Part shown: piece by piece, positions 8,438 to 35,886 of the stretch
How positions within the stretch are numbered: the stretch's first letter is position 1
Layout: every line of letters begins with the position of its first letter
Origin: Mayamaea pseudoterrestris
Lineage: Eukaryota; Bacillariophyta; Bacillariophyceae; Sellaphorales; Sellaphoraceae
NCBI GenBank assembly: GCA_027923505.1
Contig: BROI01000005.1
Coordinates: 558,001-622,000, forward strand
DNA length: 64,000 nucleotides
Direction of reading: 5' to 3'
Notes under the pieces: model-generated
What the model was told of the DNA's origin: nothing
Seen by the model: the letters and a program-made list of their open reading frames with translations, nothing else
Database searches by the model: none
Program-made: the position numbers and the translations under genes

Positions 8438-8838
8438 TGTCACAATGACGATCTAGTCCAGTCGCTTGACGCGAACCTAGACGTCGCCGGGGGCGAACGA
8501 GCATAGTACTCGAACCTCTGTTGCGGTACCAGAAAAGACATCTACTCACAACTACGTCATTGAAATATTGCATGTGTGCCAGCCGCAGGCACGATTAAAC
8601 AAGATTAGTATTCACTATCGTGAATGGTCTTGAAAGAGCCATCTGATCAATTGCTCTTTCTCGACCGATCGTAAATCAACTCACTTTCTAGAGAACTGCT
8701 TAATCAACTAGCGTTTTGTAGGATAAGACCCCTGTAGGATAAACCAAGGTAAAGGACTGATCATCCCGCTCACTTGGAAACCGACTACAGAGGGTGAGGA
8801 ATCGTTGCAGCCGTACGAACTGGAACTGCATTGTGTCA
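8438..8838 (+). repeat. 5' LTR of the 8438-15521 copia element
   Basis: This 401-bp direct repeat pairs with 15121-15521. It begins TGTCACAATG and ends GTGTCA. The four differences seen against the 3' LTR are all T here and C there, and three of them fall in CpG. The primer-binding region that should follow at 8839 does not start with TGG, and I could not assign a primer tRNA. Confidence 0.95.
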
Positions 8839-9087
8839 GATCACACAGTCTTGGTCTTTACAATCAACTCTCTCGGGCGCTGGTGACGACCACTCCCGTC
8901 GTTTCGTTGCACACTACATTGGCAGCGGACATCCCTCGTTCATTTCCTGTCCGAGGCTTCAATCTACACTAGTCCGGCAGACGGAGGGATTGAAGACCGA
9001 GTCGAATTGCAAGCATCGCTCGGATAGAATCGACTTCCTCAATTATTCTCGCGGTATATATTCATCCCGTACCAATCAATCAACAAC

Positions 9088-10485
9088 ATGACCGTCGTCG
9101 AAGATGATCCTCCCGACGGACCCAATGTCACGCAAGATGACGCGGAAGACAACTCGCTCGCCGTCGGATTGAAAAGCATTTACAAGCTGAAGACCGTCAA
9201 CAACGACAAGTTCATGAAGCTTCCAGTCATCGTCGCCATCAAGTCACTCCTCCCGGACGGACGCCTACTCACGGAGCCATTCCTAATGCTGACCATCAAG
9301 GACATCGAGTCGGTACTGAAGGAATCCAAAACGCACATCACGGTTATTCGAACCATTACCCGCCTTCGTCAATGGGCATCGGAAGAGCACGAACTCAAGG
9401 AATGGGCGACGCTCACATTCGCAGCACTCATCAAAGCGACCGAATCGCCCGAAGAGTCTCTATTCCAAAGCGACATGAGTCGGATTCAACGAGTCAGCTC
9501 GACGGACGTTCCAGAGAAGTCCGAGGCCGAGAAGTACAAAGCTCGCGTCCGAGTCGACACCAAAGCATACACAGAGTTCAAAGACGAGTACAAATTCCGT
9601 CAATGGTGGCTCAAGACGTTCGCAACGGCCAAGAACCAAGGCATCGAGCGAGTCTTTGATCCGGATTTCAACCCGACAACGCTTTCGCCCGAAGATCTCG
9701 AGGTATTCAAAGCGCAAGAAGCCACAGCATTCGACATCATCACTTCATACTGCAAAGTCGCCAACTGCATCCCGATCATTCGTCGCCACAAGGACGGGTC
9801 GGCCCACGAGTGCTTCAAGGAAATGCACAAGATGTACTTGACGGGCAAGAACGCCGAACGCGCAGCGCAGCGAGCCGAGTCGAGAGTTCGCGACATGAAA
9901 CTGACGAACAACCACGGCAGCACGTACACTGCGTGGTTCACTCAATGGGAGAATGCCTTGCTCGATTACGAAGATTATACCGGCGAAACAGTCCCCGACG
10001 CGACGCGCAAGAAGTGGTTGTCCGAATCGGTTCGCTGGAACGACGCCTTTCGCCAAGAAATCAGTTCGGCGAGTCGTATCCTCAACGCGCAAGGTCAAGA
10101 TCAAAGCTTCGAAGACTGGTACAAGCAGCTCATCGAGTTCGCTCGCGATACCGACGACGTCAAAGCGGCACGCAAACGCCAAATGAAGATCCACCAATCC
10201 ATCCAACAAGCGAGTACTCCACCGACCGGAGGCACTCCACCGACTAGCGGCAACACTCCAAGCAGCAGCCAAGGCGGAAACGGTCGTGGAAATGGCAGCG
10301 GACGCGGAACCGGTCGCAGTTCTGGACGCGGCGGTGGACGTGGCGGCCGAGGTAACTTCGGACGAGGTGGTGGACGTGGACAGTGCACCAATCCTTCTGC
10401 GGCATCGAACCGTCGAGTCGAGCTGGATGTATGGTTCTCTTGGACGGAGGAGCAACGCGAAGCTCACAAGGCAGAAACTCGCTGA
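9088..10485 (+). mobile_element. Gag region of the 8438 copia element
   Basis: This 465-codon open frame follows the 5' LTR by about 250 bp. It has the predominantly helical, charged make-up of Gag and a C-terminal glycine/arginine-rich tail (about residues 390-440, RGG-like repeats) in the place where nucleic-acid binding is expected. It is a fossil part, described by family only. Confidence 0.8.
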
Positions 10486-10892
10486 ATCCGAGAAGCGGAA
10501 TGTGCGCGCCTGCAGCTGAACGCAAGCCAAGCCAGCACGAACAACACTAATACACCACCAACTCCACAAATTCAGCTTCCACCGGCGAATACGACGGCGA
10601 TGTCAACTATGTCAGCGATTACTCAGCCTACAGTCGGAACTACACCAGCACGTGGAACCGCCATGCGCGCGTTTCAGTCTCAGCAACAAGGCTCGATCGC
10701 TCAAGGAAGCCAGCCATCTACTCCACCAGTGTATCAAGCACGAGTCGGCGACGTTACATACAACATGTATCGTGCCAACGCAACCAACGTCACGCGTCGT
10801 TCTACAAACCATGTCGCTACACATAATGCCACGCAGAGCGCTTATGGGTATACTCGACAAACTCATATGTACCGTGCAATGGACTCCGTCTG

Positions 10893-13800
10893 ATGTTCGC
10901 GACACTCTTGCTGAGACGTCGACATGACTCATCCGACTTCCGCCAATATGATGCAAGGACCTTGCATTCGAAACGATTCCAATTCGGATTCCCCCGGCAG
11001 GGGCACCGGAACGACAGAGAACGGAAGTTGGCGGAGCATTGTCCATTCACGGTCCAGAACGGTTTGGTCCATTTGAAGATGCATCATTTCACCGACGCTG
11101 AGTTCGACACGTTGCCGCACGTTGTCATGACAGCAGACACGCCTTGGGATCCGTCAAAGTACGATGGAGACCTTAATGACGATTCAATCCAAGCGGAAAT
11201 TGAAGCCGCGACGGACGATCACGAAGCGCCAACACTACTAGTCAACAACACCCAAGTCAACGGAAACGCGCAAGACGAATATCCCGAAGACCTTTCAGTC
11301 GAAACACTCAACGTCGTCTCATGGAATGGACTCGAAACCCACGAGTGGGAGCACTTCAGCGACGAGTCGGACCCTATGCAGGTCGAAACCGAGGGTCCAT
11401 CCGAGCGCATTGCCGACATTGTACCCGACGACGCTTCTTACAACACGAACCCACAACAGGATGACATTTCACTACCCTCACTAGTCTCACGCGGAACCAT
11501 ATCAACATCCGGATCAAGCCATGCTCAGAACCCCAACGACGCAACGTTCGAGTACGAAGACACTGCCGGGGAAATGTACGATCCGTACGAGCTGCAGGTC
11601 AATGCCGCAATTGTAGAAGCTGGAGGCAATCCATATTCTGGACTAGCCGGCCGACCGGCACGCACTGTGATTCCTACACGACCAGATTACCAAATGCTTC
11701 GTCCCAACTTCGGATTTCTACCCACCGATCGTATCAAGGAGACTCTCAAGAACACTACCCAATTCTACCGCGCCGAGCAACGTTTCCCTCAGCGACGCCA
11801 TTTGCGTACTCATTTCCCGGGTGCGAATGTTTGTCGACTACCTGAAGAAGTTGCCATGGACACACTATTCTCCGACACACCCGCACTCAACGATGGTATT
11901 CCTGGACACGCCGGATGCCAAGCAGCGCAACTCTACGTCTGCATGCAGAGCCGATTGATTCGCGTCTACCCGATGGCGAACAAGGGACAAGTTCCGTCGA
12001 CGCTCATGCAGTTTATCAACGATTGCGGTGCTCCACTCGGTCTAATCTCAGACGGAGCCAAGGAAGAAAACAGCCTAGCGATTCGAGAAATCGAACGCCA
12101 GTTTATGATCCGTAAGCACTGGGTCAGCGAACCGGAAAACCAACAGCAGAATCCAGCGGAACGCGTTATCGGCGACGTCGAGCGCACTGTCAATGTCAAC
12201 ATGGATCGGACCGGATCGCCTGCACCAACCTGGTTGCTATGCACTCTACACATCGTAGCTCTACTCGCCCTCATGTCCCAGTCACGTCTCGGTGGCATGA
12301 CCCCATATCAAAAGGTATACAACGAAGTACCCGATATCTCTGCCTACCTCAACTACCACTGGTGGCAGCCCGTTCGATACAGCGCAAACTCTACATCGCT
12401 CAACCAAACCAATGAGCGCGCTGGACGTTTCGTCGGGGTAGCTGATAACGTCGGTGATGCTCTAACGTACTGGGTCTTGGACGAGGAAACACATCAAGTT
12501 GTCGCCCGAAGCATTGTAACGGCTCGTCGAGACGATCTTAATCCAAACATCCGTCTTGATTTACCACAAGTCGAAGCTTCTCCCGAAGGCGACATGTTCG
12601 TATACACCGAAGGTGGACTCCAAGAGAGCTTCCAACTCGGCAACCAAAGCTCCGAAGAAGAGGGGCTACCCACTGATGAACCCGTTCCTACTGAAACGGC
12701 CGACGACGGACCCGAGTTCTACTTCGGAGATGAACCATTCGTCGGAAGCAGTCCCTACCAGCGGCCGCCATCAGCCCGTCCTCAAGCGCATCCACGCGGA
12801 CAAATCGATTTACTACCTGCATTCTCACCTGAAGAACTTGTCAATCAAACGTTTACTTGGCATACTCAGGATGGGGAGCCCATGCGAGCCGAAATCGTTC
12901 GCAAGCTCGAAACCATGGACGCAGCCAACCATCATAACATCAAGTTCCTACTCAAAATCGGCGAAAACGAAGCTGAAGAAGTCATCGACTACATCCGACT
13001 CTGCGAATTGTTCGAGAAGGACCAAGCAGCAAAGGTAAACGATCCTGAACACAACTGGACGTTTAAAGCAATCCTATCGCACGAAGGGCCACTCACAAAG
13101 CAATCCGACGGATGGAAAGGCTCCATGTACAACATCAAAGTCGTGTGGGAAGACAACTCAACGACTTGGGAGCCATTGAACGCTTTAGCACGCGACGACA
13201 TCATTTCCTGCGCTCGCTACGCCGAGGCGAACGGACTACTCAATAAGAAAGGCTGGAAGTTCCTACGCGACGCAGCCCGACGCGCACGTATCGCCCGTCG
13301 AACCGTAAACCAAGCCAAGCAACGACGCAGCATTCGACACAAGTTCGGCGTCAAGGTACCTCGCGATCCAAAGGAAGCTCGAAAGTTCCAAGAAGAACTC
13401 CGGCACACCAAATGGACCGACGCGGAGAAGGTAGAGCTGTCAAGCCTGTTCGAATACGACACCTTCATTGATCTCGGATTGAATGCCGCGCCTCCCGAAG
13501 GCTATCAAAAGATTCGCACTATCTGGGTCTACGACTGCAAGCAAGACTTTCGTCACAAGGCTCGGATGGTTGCTGGTGGACACCTTACTGACCCTGTCGA
13601 CGATTCATACTCGAGCGTCGTTTCACTCGAATCGCTGCGCCTAGCGCTGGCGATAGGGGAGTTGAATGGACTCACTCCCATGGTAGGCGACATCGGAAAT
13701 GCTTACCTCGAAGCCAAAACCAAAGAAAAGATTTACTTCATCGCTGGGCCTGAGTTCGGCGACTTGGAAGGCCACACACTCATCATCTACAAAGCACTTT

Positions 13801-14165
13801 ACGGCCTACGCACAAGCGGAGCACGATTCCACGAGCGGCTCGCGGACGCGCTACGAGCGGAAGGCTTCAAAGCCTCGTACGCCGATCCAGACGTTTGGAT
13901 TCGCGATGCTGGCCATTGTTACGAATACATCTGCACTTACGTCGACGACCTTATGGCAATCATGATTGACCCGGGCGCATTCTACGACATTCTTCGCAAC
14001 AAGTACAAGTTCAAGCTCAAGGGCGTCGGATGCCCAGAGTACCATCTAGGCGGCGACTTCGGACGCGACCCTGACGGAACACTATTCTGGGGCACCAAGA
14101 CCTACATCACCAAGCTTCTAGCCAACTACGAGCGTACATTCAACGGACCACCACAGACAGCGTAA
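10893..14165 (+). mobile_element. Pol region of the 8438 copia element (integrase, chromo-like, RT)
   Basis: In order, it shows the pre-integrase block (VQNGLVHLKM, then LPHVVMTADTPWDP); an integrase core with ISDGAKEENS and the ENQQQNPAERVI stretch; the LGGMTPYQKVY region; a chromo-like module around 13110-13200 (KVVWEDNSTTWEPL); and reverse transcriptase with HKARMVAGGHLTDP and the catalytic YVDDLM box near 13938. The layout matches the copia remnant at 770-4260. Confidence 0.85.
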
Positions 14166-14244
14166 AGCTCTCCACTCGACTCTCACGACCACCCGAACTC
14201 GACCAGACGTCCCTGTTAGGGCGGACTCAAGATCTACCAATCGT

Positions 14245-15189
14245 TTGTCGGAGCCCTTCAGTGGGCGATCACCCTTGGCCGTTCGATATCTGCAGTGCCA
14301 CCGCCCCTGCCTGTCACGCGGACAGCCTCGCATTGGACACCTCGACCGAGTCAAGCGTGTATGCGGCTACCTTCGCAAGTTTCCCGAGGCAGCCATCCGC
14401 TTTCGCACCCAGTGGCCGCAGAACGAAATCATCTTCGGCGACTCACCAACCTATGACTGGCAACAAACCGTCTACGACAACCCCAAGGAAGAGGTCCTTT
14501 CACTCTGGCCAAAACCAAAGGGCAAGACAGTTCGCCTTACTACCCTCAAAGATGCCAACCTGATGCATTGCAAAGTCACCGGCAAAGCATGCACTGGAAT
14601 CCTTCACTTCATTCAGCAGACTCCGTTCAAGTGGTTTGCCAAACTTCAAGATACCGTCGAACACGCGACCTTTGGCTCTGAACTCATGAGCGGGCGCGTT
14701 GCAACCGACCATATCCTAGGCATACGCGCGTCACTCATGGCAATGGGTGTTCCCATCGAGTCCTCTTCATGGCTACTCGGTGATAACCAATCAGTCATCA
14801 CGCAGTGTACAGTGCCTACATCCACACTCACCAAGCGCCACAATGCCCTCGCATATCACCGTATCCGATGGTGTGTAGCAGCCGGAATTATCAAGTTCGT
14901 CAAGATTGCCGGCAAGGAAAACGCTTCCGACGCGCTTACCAAGTACCTACCCTACATCGACGCATGGCCCCTACTCAAACCATTACTGTTCTGGCGTGGC
15001 GAAACCTTGGATCCTGGAGAACTCGAATTCTACCTTATGGACCCGTCACTGCCTCAAGGGGAGCCGACTCCAGGGGAGCTCATTGAGCTTACACCTGTCC
15101 TGGCACACCTACAAGGGGAGTGTCACAATGACGATCTAGTCCAGTCGCTTGACGCGAACCTAGACGTCGCCGGGGGCGAACGAGCATAG
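14245..15189 (+). mobile_element. RNase H region of the 8438 copia element
   Basis: This is the Ty1/copia RNase H domain, with FGSELMSGRVATDHI, GDNQSV, LTKRHNALAYHRI and DALTKYLP. It resembles the fragment at 24-503. A purine-rich ACAAGGGGAG tract lies directly before the 3' LTR at 15121 and serves as the polypurine tract. Confidence 0.85.
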
Positions 15190-15521
15190 TACTCGAACCT
15201 CCGTTGCGGTACCAGAAAAGACATCTACTCACAACTACGTCATTGAAATATTGCATGTGTGCCAGCCGCAGGCACGATTAAACAAGATTAGTATTCACTA
15301 TCGTGAATGGTCTTGAAAGAGCCATCTGATCAATCGCTCTTTCTCGACCGATCGTAAATCAACTCACTTTCTAGAGAACTGCTTAATCAACTAGCGTTTT
15401 GTAGGATAAGACCCCTGTAGGATAAACCAAGGTAAAGGACTGATCACCCCGCTCACTTGGAAACCGACTACAGAGGGTGAGGAATCGTTGCAGCCGTACG
15501 AACTGGAACTGCATCGTGTCA
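15121..15521 (+). repeat. 3' LTR of the 8438-15521 copia element
   Basis: Direct repeat of 8438-8838, 401 bp, TG...CA ends, followed by the GACGT target duplication at 15522-15526. Confidence 0.95.
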
Positions 15522-15526
15522 GACGT

Positions 15527-17708: not shown

Positions 17709-17892
17709 TGTCACGATGTAATGGTACAGCGTGGTGTTTGTACTCTAAGAGCCATACTAGTGACTGAAACAGTACTTATATACATGCAGTGGCAGTGTAT
17801 GGGCAACGTGAATGGTTCGCCGGTGCTCTGGTTCGATTCCGGGGTGCGTTAGCTTTTGCCTTTCTGCATGCGAGTACTGCTACGTCGTGTTA
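17709..17892 (+). repeat. 5' LTR of the TRIM at 17709
   Basis: 184-bp direct repeat of 18108-18290. It carries the tRNA-like unit at 17805-17851. Confidence 0.92.
17805..17851 (+). ncRNA. tRNA-like top half (acceptor plus T arm) in the TRIM LTR
   Basis: AACGTG (17805-17810) pairs with the segment GCGTT before 17851. A T arm of five pairs (TCTGG/CCGGG) closes a canonical seven-base TTCGATT loop. The B box GGTTCGATTCC (17830-17840) fits the Pol III consensus exactly, and TTTT follows at 17854-17857. D and anticodon arms are missing or collapsed, so it is not a working tRNA gene. If it ended at A17851 plus an added CCA, its 3' end would match the primer-binding site at 17893. A second copy is at 18204-18250. 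Confidence 0.55.
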
Positions 17893-17906
17893 TGGTAACG
17901 TCACCC
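17893..17906 (+). promoter_or_regulatory. Primer-binding site of the TRIM at 17709
   Basis: TGGTAACGTCACCC directly follows the 5' LTR. Its first eight bases are the complement of CGTTACCA, the predicted 3' end of the element's own LTR tRNA-like unit with CCA added. The next bases (CACC) also match if one T is bulged. Confidence 0.65.
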
Positions 17907-17940
17907 GTCCAATGTCGGACCTGGTGTGATTGTGGTTCGA

Positions 17941-17965
17941 GTCTCGAAAAAGCAAAAATCGAGAC
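17941..17965 (+). repeat. Hairpin in the TRIM interior
   Basis: Perfect 7-bp arms GTCTCGA and TCGAGAC flank an 11-base A-rich loop that contains the AAAAGCAAAAA block also found in the other TRIM. A near B box (GGTTCGAGTCT, 17934-17944) overlaps its start. It could be an RNA packaging or dimerisation structure; this is inference. Confidence 0.4.
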
Positions 17966-18107
17966 CGCGTTGACTGGCAGCTGAGGTGTGTCCCTGCAAT
18001 GTCGCAGGGAACGTGTCATCGTTTGGGAGTAATGACTCCGGCGATAAGTGTCACACCGAAGCACGTAAACCCAGGGCGCGAGAGCATGACTCATAGAGTA
18101 AGGGGGA

Positions 18108-18290
18108 TGTCACGATGTAATGGTACAGCGTGGTGTTTGTACTCTAAGAGCCATACTAGTGACTGAAACAGTACTTATATACATGCAGTGGCAGTGTATG
18201 GGCAACGTGAATGGTTCGCCGGTGCTCTGGTTCGATTCCGGGGTGCGTTAGCTTTTGCCCTTTGCATGCGAGTACTGCTACGTCGTGTTA
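18108..18290 (+). repeat. 3' LTR of the TRIM at 17709
   Basis: 183-bp repeat of 17709-17892. It carries the second tRNA-like unit at 18204-18250 with the B box at 18229-18239. Confidence 0.92.
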
Positions 18291-24163: not shown

Positions 24164-24168
24164 ACCCG

Positions 24169-24402
24169 TAAAAGAAACCTGCTAGCTGAAGTGCAAGTTA
24201 GGTGTCAATCAAGCTCGCCAGGGAGTAGACGCTGGAGAGTCCTTTAGTTGTAGCAATAAGCTCACAATTTTAGATTTGAGTTGCTTTCAAACAAGTTGTC
24301 GTCGAGCGTAAGTGCGGGACTTTGATTCCAAGAGTCATAGGCTGCCGCCAGGGGACTAAACTAAAGTCCTCGGGTAGCTCGTCACCAGATAGACTTCTTT
24401 GA
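24169..24402 (+). repeat. 5' LTR of the 24169 copia element
   Basis: 234 bp, identical by eye to 31727-31960. Confidence 0.95.
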
Positions 24403-24414
24403 GGTTATGAGCCC
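24403..24414 (+). promoter_or_regulatory. Primer-binding site for the initiator tRNA-Met anticodon arm
   Basis: GGTTATGAGCCC directly follows the LTR. It is the complement of GGGCTCATAACC, the anticodon stem-loop of eukaryotic initiator tRNA-Met, not of a tRNA 3' end. Drosophila copia is known to prime from a 5' half of this tRNA, and the same mode is implied here. Confidence 0.75.
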
Positions 24415-24909
24415 AAACAGCTATCGCGAACCTTGACAAAACCTGATTGTCAAGCTTAACAAGAGAAGATGCATTCCATACGAAGAAGCAACCGGGCGTA
24501 ACAAGAACTTTCGCGAATTTTTGTCACCATCCGATCGTCTGGATTAAGCCCCTCGCCAAGGGTAATATGGCCCGTGTCAAGCGTCACTGATCCTGTACAG
24601 TCTAACAGACAGTACCAAGCAAGCAGTCGCGTCAACACTTTGATTACTGAGCGAGTCCCTTAAGTGGAAACTTTCGCCAAAAGTGTCAATGCCTCCCAAT
24701 TATTGCAAGTTGGTCATTTAAGAAGGCTGCCTAAAATAGGCTTAAATAAGAAATTTCGAGTATCCAACGGAAGAAAATTCCTGGCGTGCTCGCCCACGGT
24801 TTGTCGAGTTGCCACCATGAGGCAAACGAAACCAAAACAAGCAAGCAAACAGCAAGCGTTTTAACCAAGTTAACAAGCAGCAATCAACCACCCTACCGTT
24901 ACCATCAAG
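24415..24909 (+). other. Leader of the 24169 copia element
   Basis: Untranslated stretch between the primer-binding site and the first Gag ATG at 24910. No separate gene was seen. Confidence 0.6.
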
Positions 24910-25629
24910 ATGTCCAAGTCCACCGAAGCGTTGGAGAGGGAGCTCAAGGAGCTAGCGAAGCTTGTAGCGCAGCTACAGAAGGAGAAGGAGGACGGCGCCT
25001 CAACGGCAATGACTTACCAGGAGCTCAAGCAGTTGGCCCGCAGCAAGGCGCAAGAGTTGGCGAAGGACTGGAATCTTACTAGTCGCACTGGAGCTGCATT
25101 CCAAGCCAGTACACCTGGAGAGACGCAGTTTCGCCTCGGCAATAACCAAGGCCGAGGAGGCGGCAATGGAAACCGGAGCAATGCTAATAACCATCCTGCA
25201 CCGGCAGAAGGCGGATCCGAGCGGCAGACCTTTGCCGGAACAGAGAAGCTTTACTGTCGACGATGCCGACGCTGGTTGCCTGTGTCCAGTAACAAGGCAC
25301 ATGTAACGGCCGATCACCGCAGCAATCCAAACAACGGTGGCGGCAATAGCAGCAACAATGGCAATGGCTCTGGTGGATCCAGTCGCGGCCGCTCCCAGTC
25401 GCGCGAGCGGAATAACAGCGGCAATGCCAATGGTGGCGGGGGCGGTAACAACAACGGAAACAGTAACGGCGGCAGAGGCAATGGAGGCAGAAGGCGCCGC
25501 AACAGGAACAATGGTGGGCGCGGTGGCCAGGGCGGCAATAATCAAAGCGCCCAGCAACCGACCCAGTCGACAACCACGTCGAGCGGTTACCTCTCTAGCT
25601 TCTCCATGAATCTGTTCCCCGAAATGTGA
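24910..25629 (+). mobile_element. Gag-like region of the 24169 copia element
   Basis: 239 codons: a helical N terminus (MSKSTEALERELKELAKLV), then a short Cys/His unit (YCRRCRRWLP, then HVTADHR) spaced like a C2H2 finger rather than the usual CCHC knuckle, then a long Gly/Asn/Arg-rich tail likely to bind RNA. It is short for a Gag. Confidence 0.7.
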
Positions 25630-25647
25630 AGGTGTTGGACGCTACTC

Positions 25648-26268
25648 ATGTTCTTTATTATGGTATTGAATCTGAGTGCGTCGGGTTTAAGATTTGCAAG
25701 TCTCACAAGTGTTCCAGCTCCTTACCAGGCAGCAGGCCAAGCTTTCGAGGCAGTTCTTCTTGGAGCCGGTCGATTTATCCTTGCTTTGGCAGCTCTTCTG
25801 AGCCAGTCCCCATGGTTGCAGTGTTTCTATCAAGTTGTTGCAAGTTTCAACCGCAATGGCTTGCTCCTGCTCCAGTGGATTGCCCATTGGACGAGTTGGA
25901 TGGCGTTTTACTTCATACGTCTCCTCGATTCAGCGCAAGTGGAAACCGCGTTCCTCGGTGTCCTTTCCAAGCTCCAAGAACCTTGTTACTATGTTCTCCA
26001 AGCACTGTGGTTCGTTCTCAAAATGAATCCGGTGTCCCAAATTCTAGGCAAGCTCCTCGAGTGGTTAGCTAAACCGTTCAGGATGCGAGCCGATGTGTCC
26101 CAGTGGACATCTCCACGCGTCTTTCCAAAGCGCTGGATGGTCCTCGATGCCGTCATGCTCTCTAATCATGCGGCCATGGAAGTGTCACAAAGATTGGTGC
26201 GCTACACACGATTCGTGCACCTATTCTGTCGATATCAAGTCCGTCTGTCCACATGCGTCTCTTCCTGA
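25648..26268 (+). mobile_element. Hydrophobic open frame between Gag and protease
   Basis: About 206 codons with several hydrophobic stretches (VLLGAGRFILALAALL, LLLLQWIAHWTSWMAFYFI, YYVLQALWFVL). This is not a usual Ty1/copia part. It may be an extra protein or a chance frame in an untranslated spacer. Confidence 0.35.
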
Positions 26269-26435
26269 GTGCAAGGCGCAAGAAATGGAAGAAGGCGCAA
26301 GTTGCTATTCGAGAGGAAGCCAAGCTAGTCGGCGAGCAGCTTTAACGCAGCCAAGCAGATGCATGCTCGAGTTGCGCCAAAAGCCATGGAATTTGACGGC
26401 TAACATGCTTTGATCACCAAGATTTACCAAGTCTT

Positions 26436-27848
26436 TTGGAAGCGCAAGCGCAATGGTTAGCAATGCTCCCACCAGTGCCAAGCAAAGTCGGCGGACAACA
26501 GAAGCAAGATGAGGAAGCTGCACTAGACCCTCTCCAAGTCTGTTTCTTTGTGCCTGCCGAGCAAGAGTCTCTACCCCAGGAAGCTTTCTTTGATGCTGTT
26601 GGCGATATAACAGACATTGAAGACGTCTTCTTCGAGGTTGAGCAAATTCCCAGTCCTGTACCCAGTGATGATCCGTCCCCGCTCGCGTCCCTGACCGAGT
26701 CCAAGACCAAGATCAAGACCAAGGCCCTGCTCGTGTCCCTGACCGAGTCCAAGACCAAGTCCAAGTCCAAGGCCCCGCTCGTGTCCCTGACCGAGTGCAA
26801 GACCAAGTCCCAGTCCAAGTCCTATTCCCAATGCCAGGCTCTTATGCCGGCGCCAAGCAAGCTTCTCGAGGAGGTTCTCCACGGCCATGAAGGCGCATCA
26901 ACGATAGCTCAAGCTCTTCTCTCCACGGTTGATGAGTCCTTTAACTTGTCGCCGCCCTATCCAGGGAGCCTGTCGCCGCCTCTTCAATTGCGGTCATCAA
27001 GCTTGGGCAAGGAAGACTATAGCAATGCATTCAATGCTCACGTCTTTGACCCAGACTTTGTCATGGCGTTGCATTCGAGGCCAAGTGTTCAGGGCGGTCA
27101 GGAGGAGCTAATCTCCGTCGTCCTAGATACTGGTTGCTCCGTTGCTCTGACGTTTTGTGAGGATGATTTTGTTGAGTTGTCAAGGACCAAAGGCTTTATC
27201 AATACCGCTAATGGCAAGTCTGCTATCACGGGGCACGGCAAAGTGCGTTGGATGTTTATCACGGAGCAAGGCGAGAATGTGGAGGTCATTGTACCAGCGC
27301 ATTTGTGTCCTGCCTCCAACCAACGCCTGCTGTCGCCTCAAGGCTATGCTCTATACCACGGTTTAAGCCAAGATGAGATCCAATATGGCGGTTCACATTC
27401 ATTCTTCTTCATGAACCTGAAGGACCAAGATGGCAAGTTTCACAAGTTCCGTTGTCCCATTCATCCGCGCTCGAACCTTCCACTAGCGGTTGCCCGCTCA
27501 AGCGAGTCCTGCACGTGTGCCGAAGCCAATTGCACAAGTTGCTTCAGCCATGGCTACATTACTGTGGCTGAGGAGACAAACCAGAATCTAACTGGCAGTC
27601 AACGTGAGCTCCTACTGTGGCATCAGCGTCTCGCGCACCGAGCAATGAACTATGTTCAAGACTTGTTTATTCCGAAGGTCGAGCCCAGCTCCTTGCCTCC
27701 TGCTGAGCCACCGCCGGGTCCGTGTATCAAACCGACTCACAGCGGTGCTCGCACATGTCCTGCTCCTAAGTGTGCTGCCTGCCTACTAGCCAAGCAGCGG
27801 CGCAGGCGAGAGCTCAAGGAGTGCGCAATCTTGTTGATGGCGCTCTGA
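26436..27848 (+). mobile_element. Protease and pre-integrase region of the 24169 copia element
   Basis: The aspartic protease signature VLDTGCSVALTF lies near 27120 and the pre-integrase motif LLLWHQRLAHRAMNYV near 27610. A 48-bp unit is repeated three times in the N-terminal linker (26682-26825). Confidence 0.85.
26682..26825 (+). repeat. Three tandem 48-bp coding repeats
   Basis: Three copies of a 48-bp unit encode a 16-residue Ser/Thr/Lys-rich repeat starting LVSLTESKTK. Copies differ at a few bases. They lie in the linker before the protease domain. Confidence 0.85.
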
Positions 27849-27978
27849 TGGTGGATGATTTGCAGCCAGGTGACCCGTCTCTGTTGATCATCAGTCGTCA
27901 GTCTCGGTAGACGCCCGACGTCTCGAGGGCGGGAATCCACAGGAATGAAATTTTGCGGCGGTACCATTTACGTGACCA

Positions 27979-28760
27979 TTGTTCCAGAGCTATCTTCTGT
28001 ATCCACCAAGTCAGTTTTGCGACGGCGATACCATCAAGGGCAAGCGGCTAGTTGAAAAATACTTTGACGAAGCCCTGCCTGGACTAAAGATCAAAGCCTT
28101 CCATGGCGACAATGGCATTTTCAACTCAGCCGAGTTTGAGGCCGACTTGTTGCGCCAAGGGCAGACGATTAAGTTCAGCGGTGTCGGTGCACATCATCAA
28201 AACGGTGTTGCAGAACGTTCCATTCAGATTGTGGTAGAGATGGCGAGAACGATGATGCAGCATGCTTCAATGCACTGGCCGTCGGAATTCGAGGAAAGTT
28301 TGTGGCCCTTCGCCATGGACTATGCCTGCTGGTTGTGGAACAACATGCCGTCCCGAGGAGGTTTAACACCTTTGGAAGTGATGTCCGGTGTCTCCGGTGG
28401 AGGTGCAAACCTTAGCCGTGCAAGAGTTTGGGGTTGTCCAACCTTCGTGTTAGATCCAAAGCTACAAGACAAAAAGAAGATCCCGAAATGGCGCCCACGC
28501 TCCAGGCGAGGCCAGTTTCTGGGCATGTCTACAGCTCATTCATCAACCGTTGGTCTCATCCGGAATCTGGTTACTCAGCACGTGTCGCCACAATTCCATG
28601 TGGTGTATGATGAGCTGTTCCAGACGGTGGCAAACCCTGGCTTTGACGACGCAGACCCACTATGGATCCGCCTGTTTCGGTCAAACCGAGAGCTTTACCT
28701 CGACATGGAGGAGCTCAAGGCAGACTTGTATCCAGCGCAGTTAAGAGAGGACTACTGGAC
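27979..28760 (+). mobile_element. Integrase region of the 24169 copia element
   Basis: Integrase core with FHGDNGIFNSAEF and GVGAHHQNGVAERSIQ (Asp and Glu of the DDE triad visible), then WPFAMDYACWLWN and GGLTPLEVMSG. The TRIM follows. Confidence 0.85.
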
Positions 28761-28769
28761 TGAGGAAGA

Positions 28770-28975
28770 TAGCAGGTTGCACACGAAAAACAGCAACCAG
28801 AGCGATACCTTTACTTGTCATAGTGCATGGTGCCTTGTATGCAGCATATAGTACACTAGCAGACGGAAAAGTAGCAGCGTGTTTAGAGGTGATATAGCCG
28901 GTTATCCTTGGTTCGATTCCGAGGTGCGCTACTTTTAACGGCATAGTGATACTACTTTCTGTTGCATACCTGCTA
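28770..28975 (+). repeat. 5' LTR of the nested TRIM
   Basis: 206 bp, identical by eye to 29240-29445. Confidence 0.93.
28876..28931 (+). ncRNA. tRNA-like top half in the nested TRIM LTR
   Basis: AGCGTGT (28876-28882) pairs over seven positions, some G-U, with GTGCGCT (28924-28930). The T arm CTTGG/CCGAG closes the canonical TTCGATT loop. The B box GGTTCGATTCC is at 28910-28920, and TTTT follows at 28933-28936. The middle (24 bases) can form only a short GATA/TATC stem, so D and anticodon arms are not both present. Compared with the unit at 17805-17851, acceptor pair 2-71 is G-C here and A-U there. A second copy is at 29346-29401. Confidence 0.6.
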
Positions 28976-28987
28976 TGGTAGCGTCCC
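28976..28987 (+). promoter_or_regulatory. Primer-binding site of the nested TRIM
   Basis: TGGTAGCGTCCC follows the 5' LTR. The first eight bases are the complement of CGCTACCA, the predicted end of the LTR tRNA-like unit with CCA added. The base differing from the other TRIM (G for A at position 6) matches the change in its own tRNA-like unit. Confidence 0.65.
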
Positions 28988-29239
28988 TATCGAGAGATCT
29001 GGACTGAGGCTGCTGGTTCGAGTTGCGATCGAATCAAGCGAAGAAAAAGCAAAAATTCACTGGTTGCACGGGTTTGTCACGAACGAACGATGGGGAGTCG
29101 CGGACCCTGGGGAGTGCACAAAGATGCGCCGAGCCCGAAACGCCGCAGGAAAAACTGAAAAGTGACATTCCCCCGCGAGACGAAAATGCCAGCTGAAACG
29201 GAAGACGAGTTAGCACTATGACGCGCAAAGCTAGGGGAG

Positions 29240-29445
29240 TAGCAGGTTGCACACGAAAAACAGCAACCAGAGCGATACCTTTACTTGTCATAGTGCATGG
29301 TGCCTTGTATGCAGCATATAGTACACTAGCAGACGGAAAAGTAGCAGCGTGTTTAGAGGTGATATAGCCGGTTATCCTTGGTTCGATTCCGAGGTGCGCT
29401 ACTTTTAACGGCATAGTGATACTACTTTCTGTTGCATACCTGCTA
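29240..29445 (+). repeat. 3' LTR of the nested TRIM
   Basis: 206-bp copy of 28770-28975, with the second tRNA-like unit at 29346-29401. Confidence 0.93.
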
Positions 29446-29501
29446 AAGAAGCTGAGTTTCACCGCAGAGACAAGAGCACAAGTGCAGAAGCTACCGACGA
29501 G

Positions 29502-31700
29502 TTGTATACCGACGTTGACGTTGTGCCGAGCCAAGAGCCAGCCCCAGAGGGCGGCCAGCCAACTGAAGCACCAACTGATGCGCCAGCTCACGGTTTAGCT
29601 AATGTACAAGCTCCTATTGCCGTTGACTTCGTCCCTGACGAGGAAGTTGACGAAGAACCCGAGCAAGAGGACGAGTCTGCAGAGGCTCCTTCCTTGCAAC
29701 CAAGTGCCGATCCACAGTCTGACGAAGAGACTGTCCTAGCCAACAACCAGTCACTGCACCGCCGTTCCAAGAGGAAGACCAAAGGTCAGCGCAAACAATT
29801 GCGGTTTGACGAAGAGTTCCATCTTGCAGAGCGCGCCGTCTTGACGGAAGAAGGTTGGGTGATCCGAGCCAAGAACTCCAAAAGGGTTGGTGCGATTGTG
29901 TATCCCATAGAGAAGGACGATATTATAGGCCAACGCATGGATTGGACTGCCTCAGCAAGTTCTGGTTCATTAGCGGCGCTCTTCACTGAATATGAGCGAC
30001 TGTACACCGATCCTTACTCAATGGAGATTGACGATTCACATCCGTTCTCGTATGCCGCCAAGGTCGCCGACGCAGATTCTCCTACTTACCGGGACATTTG
30101 CCGAGCAGACGAGGAAAGCCAAGCCAAGTGGATGACTGCTATGCAGGGCGAAATGGACGCGCTCTTTAGCAAAGGAACGTTTGAGTGGATTCACAAATCA
30201 AAAGTTCCCAAGGGCAAGCAAGTCATTCCAACAACCTGGGTCTTCAAAGTGAAGCGAGCCGTCGACATGAGTATTCGCAAGTTCAAAGCGAGATTCTGTG
30301 TCAGAGGCGACCGCCAAGATCTTAAAGATGAAGATGGCGCTGAGCCAAGCGTTTACGCTCCCGTTGTCCAATGGTCCACCATAAGACTGATGTTTAACCT
30401 GATGATTGCTCACAAGCTCAAGTCGACCCAGATTGATTTCCGCAATGCTTTCGTTCAGTCTGATTTGCCAGAGCCGATTTACATCCAAGCTCCAGCGGGT
30501 TTGAATGACCCTAGCAAGAAGGATCACGTTCTTAAGGTCTTGAAGAGTTTGTATGGCGACAGGCGCGCACCCCAGTTATGGTTCAAGCATTTGTGCAAAG
30601 GATTGGAGATGCAAGGATTCAAGCCGTCTCAGCACGATCCGTGTCTCTTTATCCGCCACGATTGCGTCTTCTTTGTTCATGTTGATGACGGTTGCTTTGT
30701 CTCCAAGTCGCAGAAAGTGATTGACAAGTGCATCGAACAACTGATCAAGGATGGCTATGATTTGGATCCCGAGCGCGGCGATTTAGCTGGTTTTCTAGGC
30801 ATCAAGATTGAGGAGGAGAAGGACAGCCAAGGCAAAAGCAATGGCAACCTCGTCCTTACTCAAAACTCACTCATTGAGCGCATCCTTAAAGTGCTCAAGC
30901 TTTCTGATTCTAAAAAGACCAAGCTCATCCCCGCAGCCGAAGCCTTAAAGGCATGCAAGGAGTGTCCGGCCCACGACGAAGATTGGAATTACAGATCCGT
31001 CGAAGGCATGATGCTCTATCTAGCGCAGAATACAAGACCAGACATTGCAATGGCGGTTCACCAAGCGGCACGATTTGCTAACGATCCACGCGACGTGCAT
31101 TCCAAGGCTCTCTTCTACATTGGTCAGTACCTACTAGCTACACGAACCAAGGGAATGATCCTGCGCCCGAACCGTAATTCAATGCATTTGGACATGTATT
31201 GTGACGCCGACTTTTCCGGTCTATTCAAAGTGGAAGACCGTGACGACCCAAGAAGCGCCCGCTCTCGAACTGGTTACATTATCACGTTAGGAGGAGCGCC
31301 AGTGCTCTGGGCAAGCAAGCTCCAGACGGAGATTGCGACTTCTACCTGCGAGGCCGAGTACATTGCGTTATCTACAGGAATGCGATCACTGCTACCAGCC
31401 CGCTGGATTTTACAAGAAGTTACTAGCATGTTGCAGTTGCCGTCAAAGCAGCGCTCTGTCATTTCAACCGTTTGGGAAGACAATGATGCAGCTTTGATTC
31501 TGGCCACAACAGACCCACCCAAGATCTCGTCACGAACCAAGCATTTCAATGTGAAATATCACTGGTTTAGGAGTCACCTTAAGAAGGGACAGATTGAGTG
31601 CAAGCGAGTCGATACCAAGGAGCAGTGGGCAGACATTATGACGAAGCCACTGGACCGTATCCGACTGGAAGCAATCCGTAAGAAGATCATGGGATGGTAA
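29502..31700 (+). mobile_element. Reverse transcriptase and RNase H of the 24169 copia element
   Basis: Reverse transcriptase with TTWVFKVKRAVDMSIRKFKA, QIDFRNAFVQSDL and the catalytic FVHVDDGCFV box near 30675. RNase H has CDADFSG, SRTGYIITLGGAPVLWASK and STCEAEYIALS, and ends at 31700. This is the standard Ty1/copia order. No chromo-like module was noticed here, unlike the other two elements. Confidence 0.9.
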
Positions 31701-31726
31701 GACCTTGTTGCTCACTTGAGGAGGAG

Positions 31727-31960
31727 TAAAAGAAACCTGCTAGCTGAAGTGCAAGTTAGGTGTCAATCAAGCTCGCCAGGGAGTAGACGCTGGAGAGTCC
31801 TTTAGTTGTAGCAATAAGCTCACAATTTTAGATTTGAGTTGCTTTCAAACAAGTTGTCGTCGAGCGTAAGTGCGGGACTTTGATTCCAAGAGTCATAGGC
31901 TGCCGCCAGGGGACTAAACTAAAGTCCTCGGGTAGCTCGTCACCAGATAGACTTCTTTGA
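31727..31960 (+). repeat. 3' LTR of the 24169 copia element
   Basis: 234 bp, identical to the 5' LTR and preceded by the purine tract TTGAGGAGGAG. It ends about 124 bp upstream of the start codon of the propeller gene. Confidence 0.95.
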
Positions 31961-34041: not shown

Positions 34042-35886
34042 CTATGCCTTCATCTCCGCTCTATACCAACTGTTGTTGCCAAGCCCCCGAACATTCCAAG
34101 TCCCATCCGACGACTCTGGCTGTACATTAAAAGCCAAGTCTACCGCCTTGGAAGCTATACGAATCGTTCCATTCTCATTCACAATCGCCTCGGGCACTTC
34201 GCACTCCCAAAAGGTCCAGGCCCACGCTCGACCAAACTTTTGATCCCTTCCCTGCAGTAACTGTGCCGTGTTCCACGTCTTGCCATCATCACCCGTCACA
34301 TCGACCCGCACAATGTTGCGGCCACCGCCGGCCCACGCCCATCCTTGCACCTTGACCTTGACGCGATCACCAGGCTTTGGTTGCTCGTCGGTCAATCGCT
34401 CCATTTTGGTAATGCCAGAAAATACACTAACCTCCATCATGGATGGCATTTCCTTCAAGTCAATACCTTTGGCATCAGTAACATTGGGTGGAAGCGTCTT
34501 GTAGTTGAGTCCCCGCTGCCATGGACCCTCCGCTTCCTGCTTGGCCAGTTCAATTTTTTCCACCCACTTGACGTTTCGAACCGCCGCATACCCCGGCACC
34601 AGTATGCGTACTGGAAACCCATGCTCCCGCGGCAATGGTTCTCCATTCATTTCGTAGCAAACCAAAACGTCGCCGTAGGGATTGCATGCCTTTTCAATGC
34701 CAATGGATGCCGACATGCCATCGAGCGAGTGAAAGCGCACATGCTCCAAATGCAAATCTTCCTCCGCCGCAATGCAGTCGTCAACACCAGCCAGCTTCAA
34801 AACGTCGCGCAGTAACACACCTGTAAAGGTGGCCGTCGAAACAGCGCCCTGCCCCCAGGGCGTTCCGGATGTGCGCTGGAAAATGTTGAAGCCGCTCCGG
34901 CGGTTGCCGGAACATTGCAGCGTGGCCGTCACCGTTTTGGACGGTAGTTGCTTGAGTTCGTCCAACGACAGTTCCAACACTTTACCACCAGGTGCATAGG
35001 CACTGCAGTTCACTTTGAGTTTGTAATCTTTGACTTGATTGGCATTCAAAAATGGCACTGGATGATGGTGTCGAATGTAAAATAGCGCCGTCGGCGTCAA
35101 GTAGCTTTGCGTCAACAAATTGGTTGGCACTTCGGCGTTCATGGGAGTGTCGGAATGAACAATCAGACTGCGATGCCTTGACGGCTCCTTGCCGTAGGGA
35201 TCGTCTTGACTGAGTTGCTCGAGTGATTCGTCAATTTCTGCTTGATCCTGCTCGCGCAGTCGACCAATCGCCATGCGCTCCATGAGTTTGAGTGGAAGCT
35301 CACTGGCAAAGTGCTGTCTGTATAGATGCCAGTATGGTTCAATGGCACCTCCAGCCGCCTGACTAATCTTTTCACTGCCACCAGGATGGTTCGGTATGAA
35401 GTTGGTAACGTCGTAAACGGTTCCTCCATAAGTCATCCACATGGGTGTGCCGTCTTGGCCATTGTTTTCGGAAACTTGCTCGCTCGTGTAGACTGGAAGT
35501 GACGCATAGTAGGCGTCTTCCTCGTCACTGTCGTCGCGCTCGTCGTTGGCAACGTACGCTGGACTCAAGTTGGAGCGAGTCTTGCGGCGATTCTTTGTCT
35601 CCTTGTCGTTGGATGGGGCTTGCTCGCAATTAGTCGTCGTCGTCGTCGTAAAGGAATACGCTGATGCTGCTGATGCTGCCAAGACTGCAGCCACGGCAAG
35701 TACATGAAATTCGCTATGCTCGTTGGCCTGGTCGTTCAAAACGCTCACTGCTGCAGCTTGATGGTACCTGAATGAAGACCCATGCGTGAGTCGTGCAGCA
35801 AGTGGCTTGTTCAAAGCGAGGCGGTTCGCGGTGAGAAGCCGCGACTTGCTCGCGCTGCTAAACGAATTATATACAAGTCGCATCAT
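34042..35886 (-). CDS. SUOX: Sulfite oxidase (cytochrome b5 and molybdopterin domains)
   Basis: 614 residues, single exon. It oxidises sulfite to sulfate, passing electrons via heme b5 to cytochrome c in the mitochondrial intermembrane space. The N terminus is a basic presequence followed by a hydrophobic stretch (about 61-80), fitting bipartite sorting. The cytochrome b5 domain (about 133-212) has the heme-ligand motif HPGG at 167-170 and a second candidate His at 187 or 192. The molybdopterin domain (about 240-450) has the LQCSGNRR motif with the Mo-ligating Cys at 325, and the Mo-cofactor dimerisation domain follows (VKVQGWAWAGGGRNIVRVDV, WAWTFWECEVP). The order matches animal-type SUOX rather than the plant enzyme, which lacks the heme domain. 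It is convergent with the propeller gene. Confidence 0.93.
   Translation of the reverse strand: MMRLVYNSFSSASKSRLLTANRLALNKPLAARLTHGSSFRYHQAAAVSVLNDQANEHSEFHVLAVAAVLAASAASAYSFTTTTTTNCEQAPSNDKETKNRRKTRSNLSPAYVANDERDDSDEEDAYYASLPVYTSEQVSENNGQDGTPMWMTYGGTVYDVTNFIPNHPGGSEKISQAAGGAIEPYWHLYRQHFASELPLKLMERMAIGRLREQDQAEIDESLEQLSQDDPYGKEPSRHRSLIVHSDTPMNAEVPTNLLTQSYLTPTALFYIRHHHPVPFLNANQVKDYKLKVNCSAYAPGGKVLELSLDELKQLPSKTVTATLQCSGNRRSGFNIFQRTSGTPWGQGAVSTATFTGVLLRDVLKLAGVDDCIAAEEDLHLEHVRFHSLDGMSASIGIEKACNPYGDVLVCYEMNGEPLPREHGFPVRILVPGYAAVRNVKWVEKIELAKQEAEGPWQRGLNYKTLPPNVTDAKGIDLKEMPSMMEVSVFSGITKMERLTDEQPKPGDRVKVKVQGWAWAGGGRNIVRVDVTGDDGKTWNTAQLLQGRDQKFGRAWAWTFWECEVPEAIVNENGTIRIASKAVDLAFNVQPESSDGTWNVRGLGNNSWYRAEMKA

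Follow-up and report, generated by a model that had tools for sequence, protein, structure and literature searches.

A tRNA-like unit in the LTRs of two TRIM families of the diatom Mayamaea pseudoterrestris is complementary to the adjoining primer-binding site and may encode a primer

LTR retrotransposons of the Tf1 type self-prime from the 5' end of their own transcript. Ty1 is not known to inherit the sequence of its primer tRNA. We know of no LTR element that encodes a tRNA-type primer for its own use. The closest described elements are Helenus/TRIMp3 (Kojima 2024, PMC10886601), which are TRIMs with a tRNA-like box B stretch in the LTR. According to the cited sections of that paper, complementarity between this unit and the primer-binding site (PBS) was sought in Helenus and not found; the idea of self-priming was therefore set aside, and the unit is stated not to contribute to priming. 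The hosts named in those sections are fungi, animals and plants only.

The window is the whole stretch of 64,000 nucleotides that was analyzed, C5:558001-622000 (contig BROI01000005.1), and positions are those of the window except where a contig is given. The assembly searched comprises 30.6 Mb in 41 contigs. Two elements of less than 1000 bp with two LTRs lie in the window, TRIM A (17709-18290, 582 bp) and TRIM B (28770-29445, 676 bp). Both have a PBS and a polypurine tract adjoining their LTRs, as is characteristic of TRIMs, and in a search limited to open reading frames of at least 250 amino acids none was contained in either element. One reading frame of this size enters TRIM B from upstream. 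A sulfite-oxidase-like gene with cytochrome b5, molybdopterin and dimerisation domains lies elsewhere in the window (34042-35886, reverse strand). The LTRs and polypurine tracts, read from the sequence, are as follows.

17709 to 17892, forward strand: 5' LTR of TRIM A, 99% identical to 18108-18290
18108 to 18290, forward strand: 3' LTR of TRIM A, 99% identical to the 5' LTR
18100 to 18107, forward strand: polypurine tract of TRIM A, AAGGGGGA
28770 to 28975, forward strand: 5' LTR of TRIM B, 206 bp, same sequence as 29240-29445, with TSD AAGA
29240 to 29445, forward strand: 3' LTR of TRIM B, 206 bp, identical to the 5' LTR
29233 to 29239, forward strand: polypurine tract of TRIM B, AGGGGAG, common to the copia element P

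TRIM B is abundant, with at least 44 LTR matches in the genome, partial ones included, when the best 40 of 58 candidates were scored. We compared the 19 best-matching loci with two LTRs, a selection that is biased to young copies. LTR pairs, PBS and units are identical in all 19, and 13 have a perfect 4-bp TSD, two of these 13 having shared flanks. Decayed copies are also found (L001, L098, L100, L102 and L155), and in two of them (L102 and L155) TGGTAGCG is retained after the LTR. At one locus (L026, C3:747537-750743) two oppositely oriented TRIM B copies lie within about 1.6 kb, with identical sequence outside both. TRIM A is represented by the copy in the window; its two relatives elsewhere (C11:840511 and C1:2554276) are diverged single LTRs lacking a PBS, and no clean TSD was recognized for TRIM A by eye. 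On comparison by BLAST, the best conserved stretch between the two families is the 3' half of the tRNA-like unit (83% over 41 positions, E = 2e-6); they also share an internal motif of 14 nt and show weak similarity in the PBS and in a 10-mer. Internally, GGTTCGAGT followed by AAAAGCAAAAAT is kept in both TRIMs (17930-17970 and 29017-29062), and in TRIM A this motif resembles a hairpin loop. We tentatively describe TRIMs A and B as two related families of Helenus-like TRIMs that may be moved in trans by host copia elements.

The sequence-only reading from which this analysis started had claimed that the LTR of both TRIMs holds an acceptor/T-arm structure with a perfect box B and TTTT. Both units are indeed present.

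17805 to 17851, forward strand: tRNA-like unit A, 47 nt, from sequence and pairing; second copy at 18204-18250
17830 to 17840, forward strand: box B of unit A, GGTTCGATTCC, by sequence match (C5:575830-575840)
17854 to 17857, forward strand: TTTT, 2 nt past unit A
17777 to 17782, forward strand: TATATA, 28 nt before unit A
28876 to 28931, forward strand: tRNA-like unit B, acceptor and T arm, 56 nt, from sequence and pairing; second copy at 29346-29401
28910 to 28920, forward strand: box B of unit B, GGTTCGATTCC, by sequence match (C5:586910-586920)
28933 to 28936, forward strand: TTTT, 1 nt past unit B
28847 to 28850, forward strand: TATA, 29 nt before unit B, to be compared with host tRNA genes

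Each unit can form a 6-bp acceptor stem and a 6-bp T stem with the loop TTCGATT, followed by a discriminator A. In both families each of the 12 pairs is standard, two of those in the acceptor stem being G-U; a comparison of the families shows two pairs with both bases changed and one with a single base changed. The box B GGTTCGATTCC is present in every A and B LTR of the window. D and anticodon arms are absent from both units, no tRNA was called at the units by ARAGORN or Rfam, and inspection by eye revealed no clear canonical box A (TRGCY ... YGG) at the right spacing. Unit A has a minimum-energy fold (−14.7) other than the acceptor/T-arm form (−8.0), and the folding stability of the units is unexceptional against mononucleotide shuffles (z = −0.98 and −0.74). 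Descent from a particular host tRNA was sought for unit A, and the matches listed extend to at most 13 nt, around box B only.

Judged from its sequence, the unit is laid out as a compact host tRNA gene: a TATA some 28 nt upstream is followed by the acceptor and T arm with box B, and by a T-run. In 45 flanks of host tRNA genes (L043-L089), TATA occurs 18 times within 60 nt upstream; 16 of these 18 occurrences lie between −36 and −27, most often at −28. The TATA near −30 and the T-run are features of the Helenus/TRIMp3 type, present here as they are in the tRNA genes of this host. From the TATA spacing, the box B and the T-run it appears that the unit occupies the place of the mature tRNA behind a host tRNA promoter. 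In each element the only sense-strand TTTT follows the units. This was considered as evidence and dropped, because shuffled sequences often have no other TTTT either (P = 0.89 and 0.57).

The unit is complementary to the PBS of its own element. The PBS directly adjoins the LTR in both TRIMs, its first base being 17893 in A and 28976 in B.

17893 to 17906, forward strand: PBS of TRIM A, TGGTAACGTCACCC, 8 of 8 with unit A plus CCA, 13 pairs with one bulge
28976 to 28987, forward strand: PBS of TRIM B, TGGTAGCGTCCC, 8 of 8 with unit B plus CCA, unchanged in all 19 copies compared

A site starting at the base after the LTR and complementary over eight bases to the 3' end of the unit plus CCA had been proposed from the sequence, and we find just this, with an extension to 13 (A) or 12 (B) pairs. 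The eight Watson-Crick pairs are followed by one G-U pair in both families. The extended duplex of 13 pairs with a bulge in A has an energy of −20.3 kcal/mol, and that of 12 pairs with one mismatch in B −19.5 kcal/mol; on 18-nt sites the values are −21.9 and −19.8 kcal/mol for A and B respectively. Shuffled unit ends reach the energy of the own duplex with P = 0.0005 (A) and 0.002 (B). When the TGG of the PBS was fixed and the other letters shuffled, a run of eight was obtained in 0 of 1500 sequences for A and 1 of 1500 for B. It is unlikely that chance alone is the cause of the match in both families. Both the unit anatomy and its complementarity to the PBS are a property of TRIM A and TRIM B alike.

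The two families differ jointly at three places. In A the second acceptor pair is A-U and base 6 of the PBS is A; in B the pair is G-C and the base is G, so that acceptor positions 2 and 71 change together with the PBS. The claim that three places co-vary therefore stands as to the joint difference; since there are only two related families, it amounts to a single covarying difference. In cross-pairing, PBS A with unit B gives a run of 5, and PBS B with unit A a run of 5, or of 9 with two G-U pairs. The energy of the latter duplex is −19.0 compared with −19.5 for the own unit of B. PBS B is almost as well paired by unit A, and energy thus discriminates only for A (−20.3 versus −13.7).

Such a complementarity might be selected for a structural role in cis, without the unit being a primer. 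The 3' strand of the unit could pair with the PBS within the genomic RNA, or the unit could serve near the PBS as a decoy for proteins that handle tRNA, for which the tRNA-like element of HIV-1 is a comparison. When the CCA is left out, the unit end of either family still forms five Watson-Crick pairs and one G-U pair with the PBS, and the two stem pairs changed on both sides are also consistent with such a role. However, it has no need for the TGG of a PBS adjoining the LTR, for a discriminator directly before the T-run or for TATA at the spacing of tRNA genes. We regard a role of this kind as unlikely.

If the unit were a Pol III promoter only, as in an ordinary Helenus/TRIMp3 element, the primer would be a host tRNA, namely tRNA-Gln(UUG) in TRIM A and the initiator tRNA-Met (iMet) in TRIM B. 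The complementarity to the own unit would then be a matter of chance. We compared each PBS with 43 distinct host tRNA sequences, taken from 48 returned among the best 63 of 802 candidates. The set is without Trp, Tyr, Cys, Gly-GCC, Arg-ACG, Leu-CAA, Ile-UAU and organelle tRNAs, and the seven nuclear types among these are covered solely by a genome search with a T-loop plus CGYTA pattern. The longest 3'-anchored Watson-Crick run among the 43 is 5 for PBS A (five tRNAs) and 7 for PBS B (iMet). A host tRNA whose 3' end matches better than the unit had been named as the outcome that would speak against self-priming, and none of the 43 has a longer 3'-anchored run. Among host 3' ends, that of iMet fits PBS B best, with 7 Watson-Crick pairs, or 10 pairs including two G-U, and −15.6 kcal/mol; this fit is at chance level (P = 0.31). 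A search inside whole tRNAs gives −18.8 for Val(CAC) with PBS B. For PBS A the best host 3' end is that of tRNA-Gln(UUG), with −21.0 kcal/mol on the 18-nt site. It agrees at 12 of 15 positions, the same as the own unit without gaps, and as the best of 43 this has a chance probability of 0.019-0.023. By sequence, tRNA-Gln(UUG) is the strongest host rival for PBS A. The first four nucleotides at the 3' end of the primer would be paired, followed by a block of four positions with three mismatches. On this incomplete list of tRNAs, and with Gln(UUG) close for A, the own unit surpasses the host 3' ends in run length and energy in both families.

The T-loop plus CGYTA pattern occurs at 66 places in the genome, against 28 in the control. 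Of the 66, 49 are in B, 2 in A and 2 in decayed B copies, which leaves 13 others. A check for host tRNA genes with 3' ends like those of the units had been suggested, and ARAGORN finds no tRNA gene among the 13 non-TRIM places. Sites elsewhere in the genome that resemble a PBS for the Gln 3' end number 2, below the control of 14, and for the iMet 3' end 53, below the control of 69; all have two mismatches. Priming by host tRNAs draws support from the pairing of iMet with PBS B and of Gln(UUG) with PBS A, and from the absence of a unit-PBS match in other Helenus elements, as given in the cited sections of PMC10886601. Yet Gln would pair over only four nucleotides before the mismatch block, the fit of iMet is no better than chance, and genomic sites for both ends fall below control. 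Moreover, two different primers would be required, and the joint change between A and B is not predicted. We therefore consider host priming somewhat unlikely.

The genome is rich in copia reverse transcriptases, with at least 150 matches when the best 150 of 305 candidates were scored. One copia element, P, has an LTR of 313 nt with at least 43 matches (best 40 of 112 candidates scored). Its polypurine tract, AGGGGAG, is that of TRIM B, and its LTR begins much as the LTR of TRIM B does (27 of 32). Five P elements could be read on both flanks; a 4-bp TSD is found in two (C3:1166217 and C22:340857) and not in those at C3:741091, C13:224752 and C16:252233. The P LTR is followed by GATTAACA, which matches the anticodon region of tRNA-Asn over 8 nt. 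Two further copia elements lie in the window, named CoDi1 and CoDi2 in this analysis. CoDi1 (8438-15522) has RVT_2 and LTRs of about 400 bp from 8438 and 15121. Its start is TGTCACAATG, closely resembling TRIM A, and the site after its 5' LTR has a 9-nt match to tRNA-Asn and one of 8 to Phe. CoDi2 (24168-31960, LTRs at 24168 and 31726) is split by TRIM B, and in its PBS 14 nt match the anticodon half of iMet exactly. The flanks of CoDi2 resemble a 5-bp TSD, ACCCG. From the matches of P, CoDi1 and CoDi2 it appears that the presumed helpers have half-tRNA sites, and the TRIMs a 3'-end type of PBS of their own.

PBS B may nevertheless have a history beyond selection for the unit, since it lies in a region of homology to pol. 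A 15-mer of the LTR-PBS junction of TRIM B has 73 exact occurrences in the genome, and 98 with up to one mismatch compared with 86 for the control. The sites retrieved from outside TRIMs, four exact (L106-L109) and four with one mismatch (L110, L111, L113 and L114), belong to one recurring sequence. It is antisense to P pol and lies about 836 nt ahead of the reverse transcriptase domain. TRIM B 28951-29003, comprising the LTR end, the PBS and the start of the internal region, is homologous to this antisense pol over 53 nt (87%; L137, C3:743400-746000). The A-type sequence TGGTAACG occurs in the antisense pol of two P relatives (L110 and L111) in the absence of any unit, with the same G/A difference as between the PBSs of A and B. 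BLAST finds no match of TRIM A to copia pol, and P may thus equally have captured a B-like fragment; by sequence, either P captured the piece from B or B from P. Three loci (L092, L156 and L157) join antisense P pol to TRIM B sequence close to the stretch of homology, an arrangement that looks like the product of recombination or template switching.

The complementarity could then be a fossil, inherited and unused: a single ancestral primer tRNA may have given rise to both unit and PBS, or the PBS may stem from copia pol. The homology of the B region and the presence of TGGTAACG in the two P relatives are in keeping with this. But our searches gave no host tRNA ending in this way, TRIM A has no pol match, and inheritance does not predict that the two acceptor strands and the PBS change jointly. 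Such a fossil match is distinctly improbable.

Further families were sought in the genome by two patterns. Box B followed by TGGTA at 45-75 nt gives 41 hits against 43 in the control, of which 21 are B junctions, 1 is A, 1 is a B LTR that continues into its flank and 18 are others; no third family was recognized by this pattern. The shared internal motif gives 28 hits against 1 in the control, namely 1 A and 27 of B type including two variants, and again no third family. In other collections, viral contigs gave 0 hits and prokaryote genomes 1 hit, which is without a tRNA gene (ARAGORN) and is read as chance.

Self-priming of TRIMs A and B by the LTR unit is the best single reading of these sequences, and we place its probability at roughly 0.43. 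That the elements encode their own Pol III primer had been put forward from the sequence. The pairing of 8 of 8 and the TATA at host tRNA spacing bear it out in part, while the possible use of Gln(UUG) or iMet and the pol homology of PBS B hold it back. In the proposed mechanism Pol III would transcribe a short RNA from the LTR, stopping at TTTT. The trailer of this RNA would be trimmed and CCA added as on a tRNA, and the CCA-tailed RNA would then anneal to the PBS and prime minus-strand synthesis with the enzymes of a helper. Read-through to the second T-run would generate a genomic RNA in which the unit itself is the terminal repeat. It is possible, though on balance we lean slightly against it, that the LTR carries a gene for its own CCA-tailed tRNA-like primer, that unit and PBS co-evolve, and that the element has thereby been freed from the primer of helper or host. 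If self-priming is true, this would be the first tRNA-type primer known to us whose gene lies in the very element it primes. It would explain the retention of a tRNA-like unit in a TRIM, and provide a route by which an LTR element escapes its dependence on host tRNA.

No report of an LTR unit-PBS match of this kind was found in titles and abstracts of the open-access literature. The P and window copia elements resemble the CoDi copia elements of diatoms described in the cited part of Maumus 2009 (PMC2806351), and the TSD TTCC given there for Blackbeard has a length of 4 bp, the length also found for TRIM B and for two of the five P elements. Unlike the TRIMs, the CoDi copia elements are autonomous, and such elements in this genome have half-tRNA sites. 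The main text of PMC2806351 makes no mention of TRIM, tRNA or primer binding, nor that of PMC8147415 of TRIM or primer binding site. TRIMs A and B are like Cassandra in having a piece of a Pol III gene in the LTR, but that of Cassandra is 5S rRNA and not tRNA-like, according to the cited sections of PMC10886601. A tRNA-like element is also located near the PBS of HIV-1; in the part of the literature drawn on here it concerns the protein carrying the host primer, whereas here the end of the unit itself matches the PBS. Tf1 likewise primes from its own RNA, but by the 5' end of the transcript, where for TRIMs A and B we propose the 3' end of a tRNA-like unit plus CCA.

The nearest relatives are the Helenus elements, as described in the cited sections of PMC10886601. 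TRIMs A and B share with them the two LTRs, the PBS, the polypurine tract, the tRNA-like box B stretch, in TRIM B a TSD of 4 or 5 bp, and a presumed copia or gypsy helper in the host. They differ in three respects. Most Helenus units have boxes A and B, whereas no clear box A is seen by eye in units A and B. Helenus has the primer type of autonomous elements and a PBS similar to theirs, while the likely helpers of TRIMs A and B have anticodon-half sites instead. Finally, TRIMs A and B have a unit-PBS complementarity of 8 out of 8, where those sections report none for Helenus. Given that the complementarity is present here, the question of self-priming raised for Helenus becomes directly testable in a single genome.
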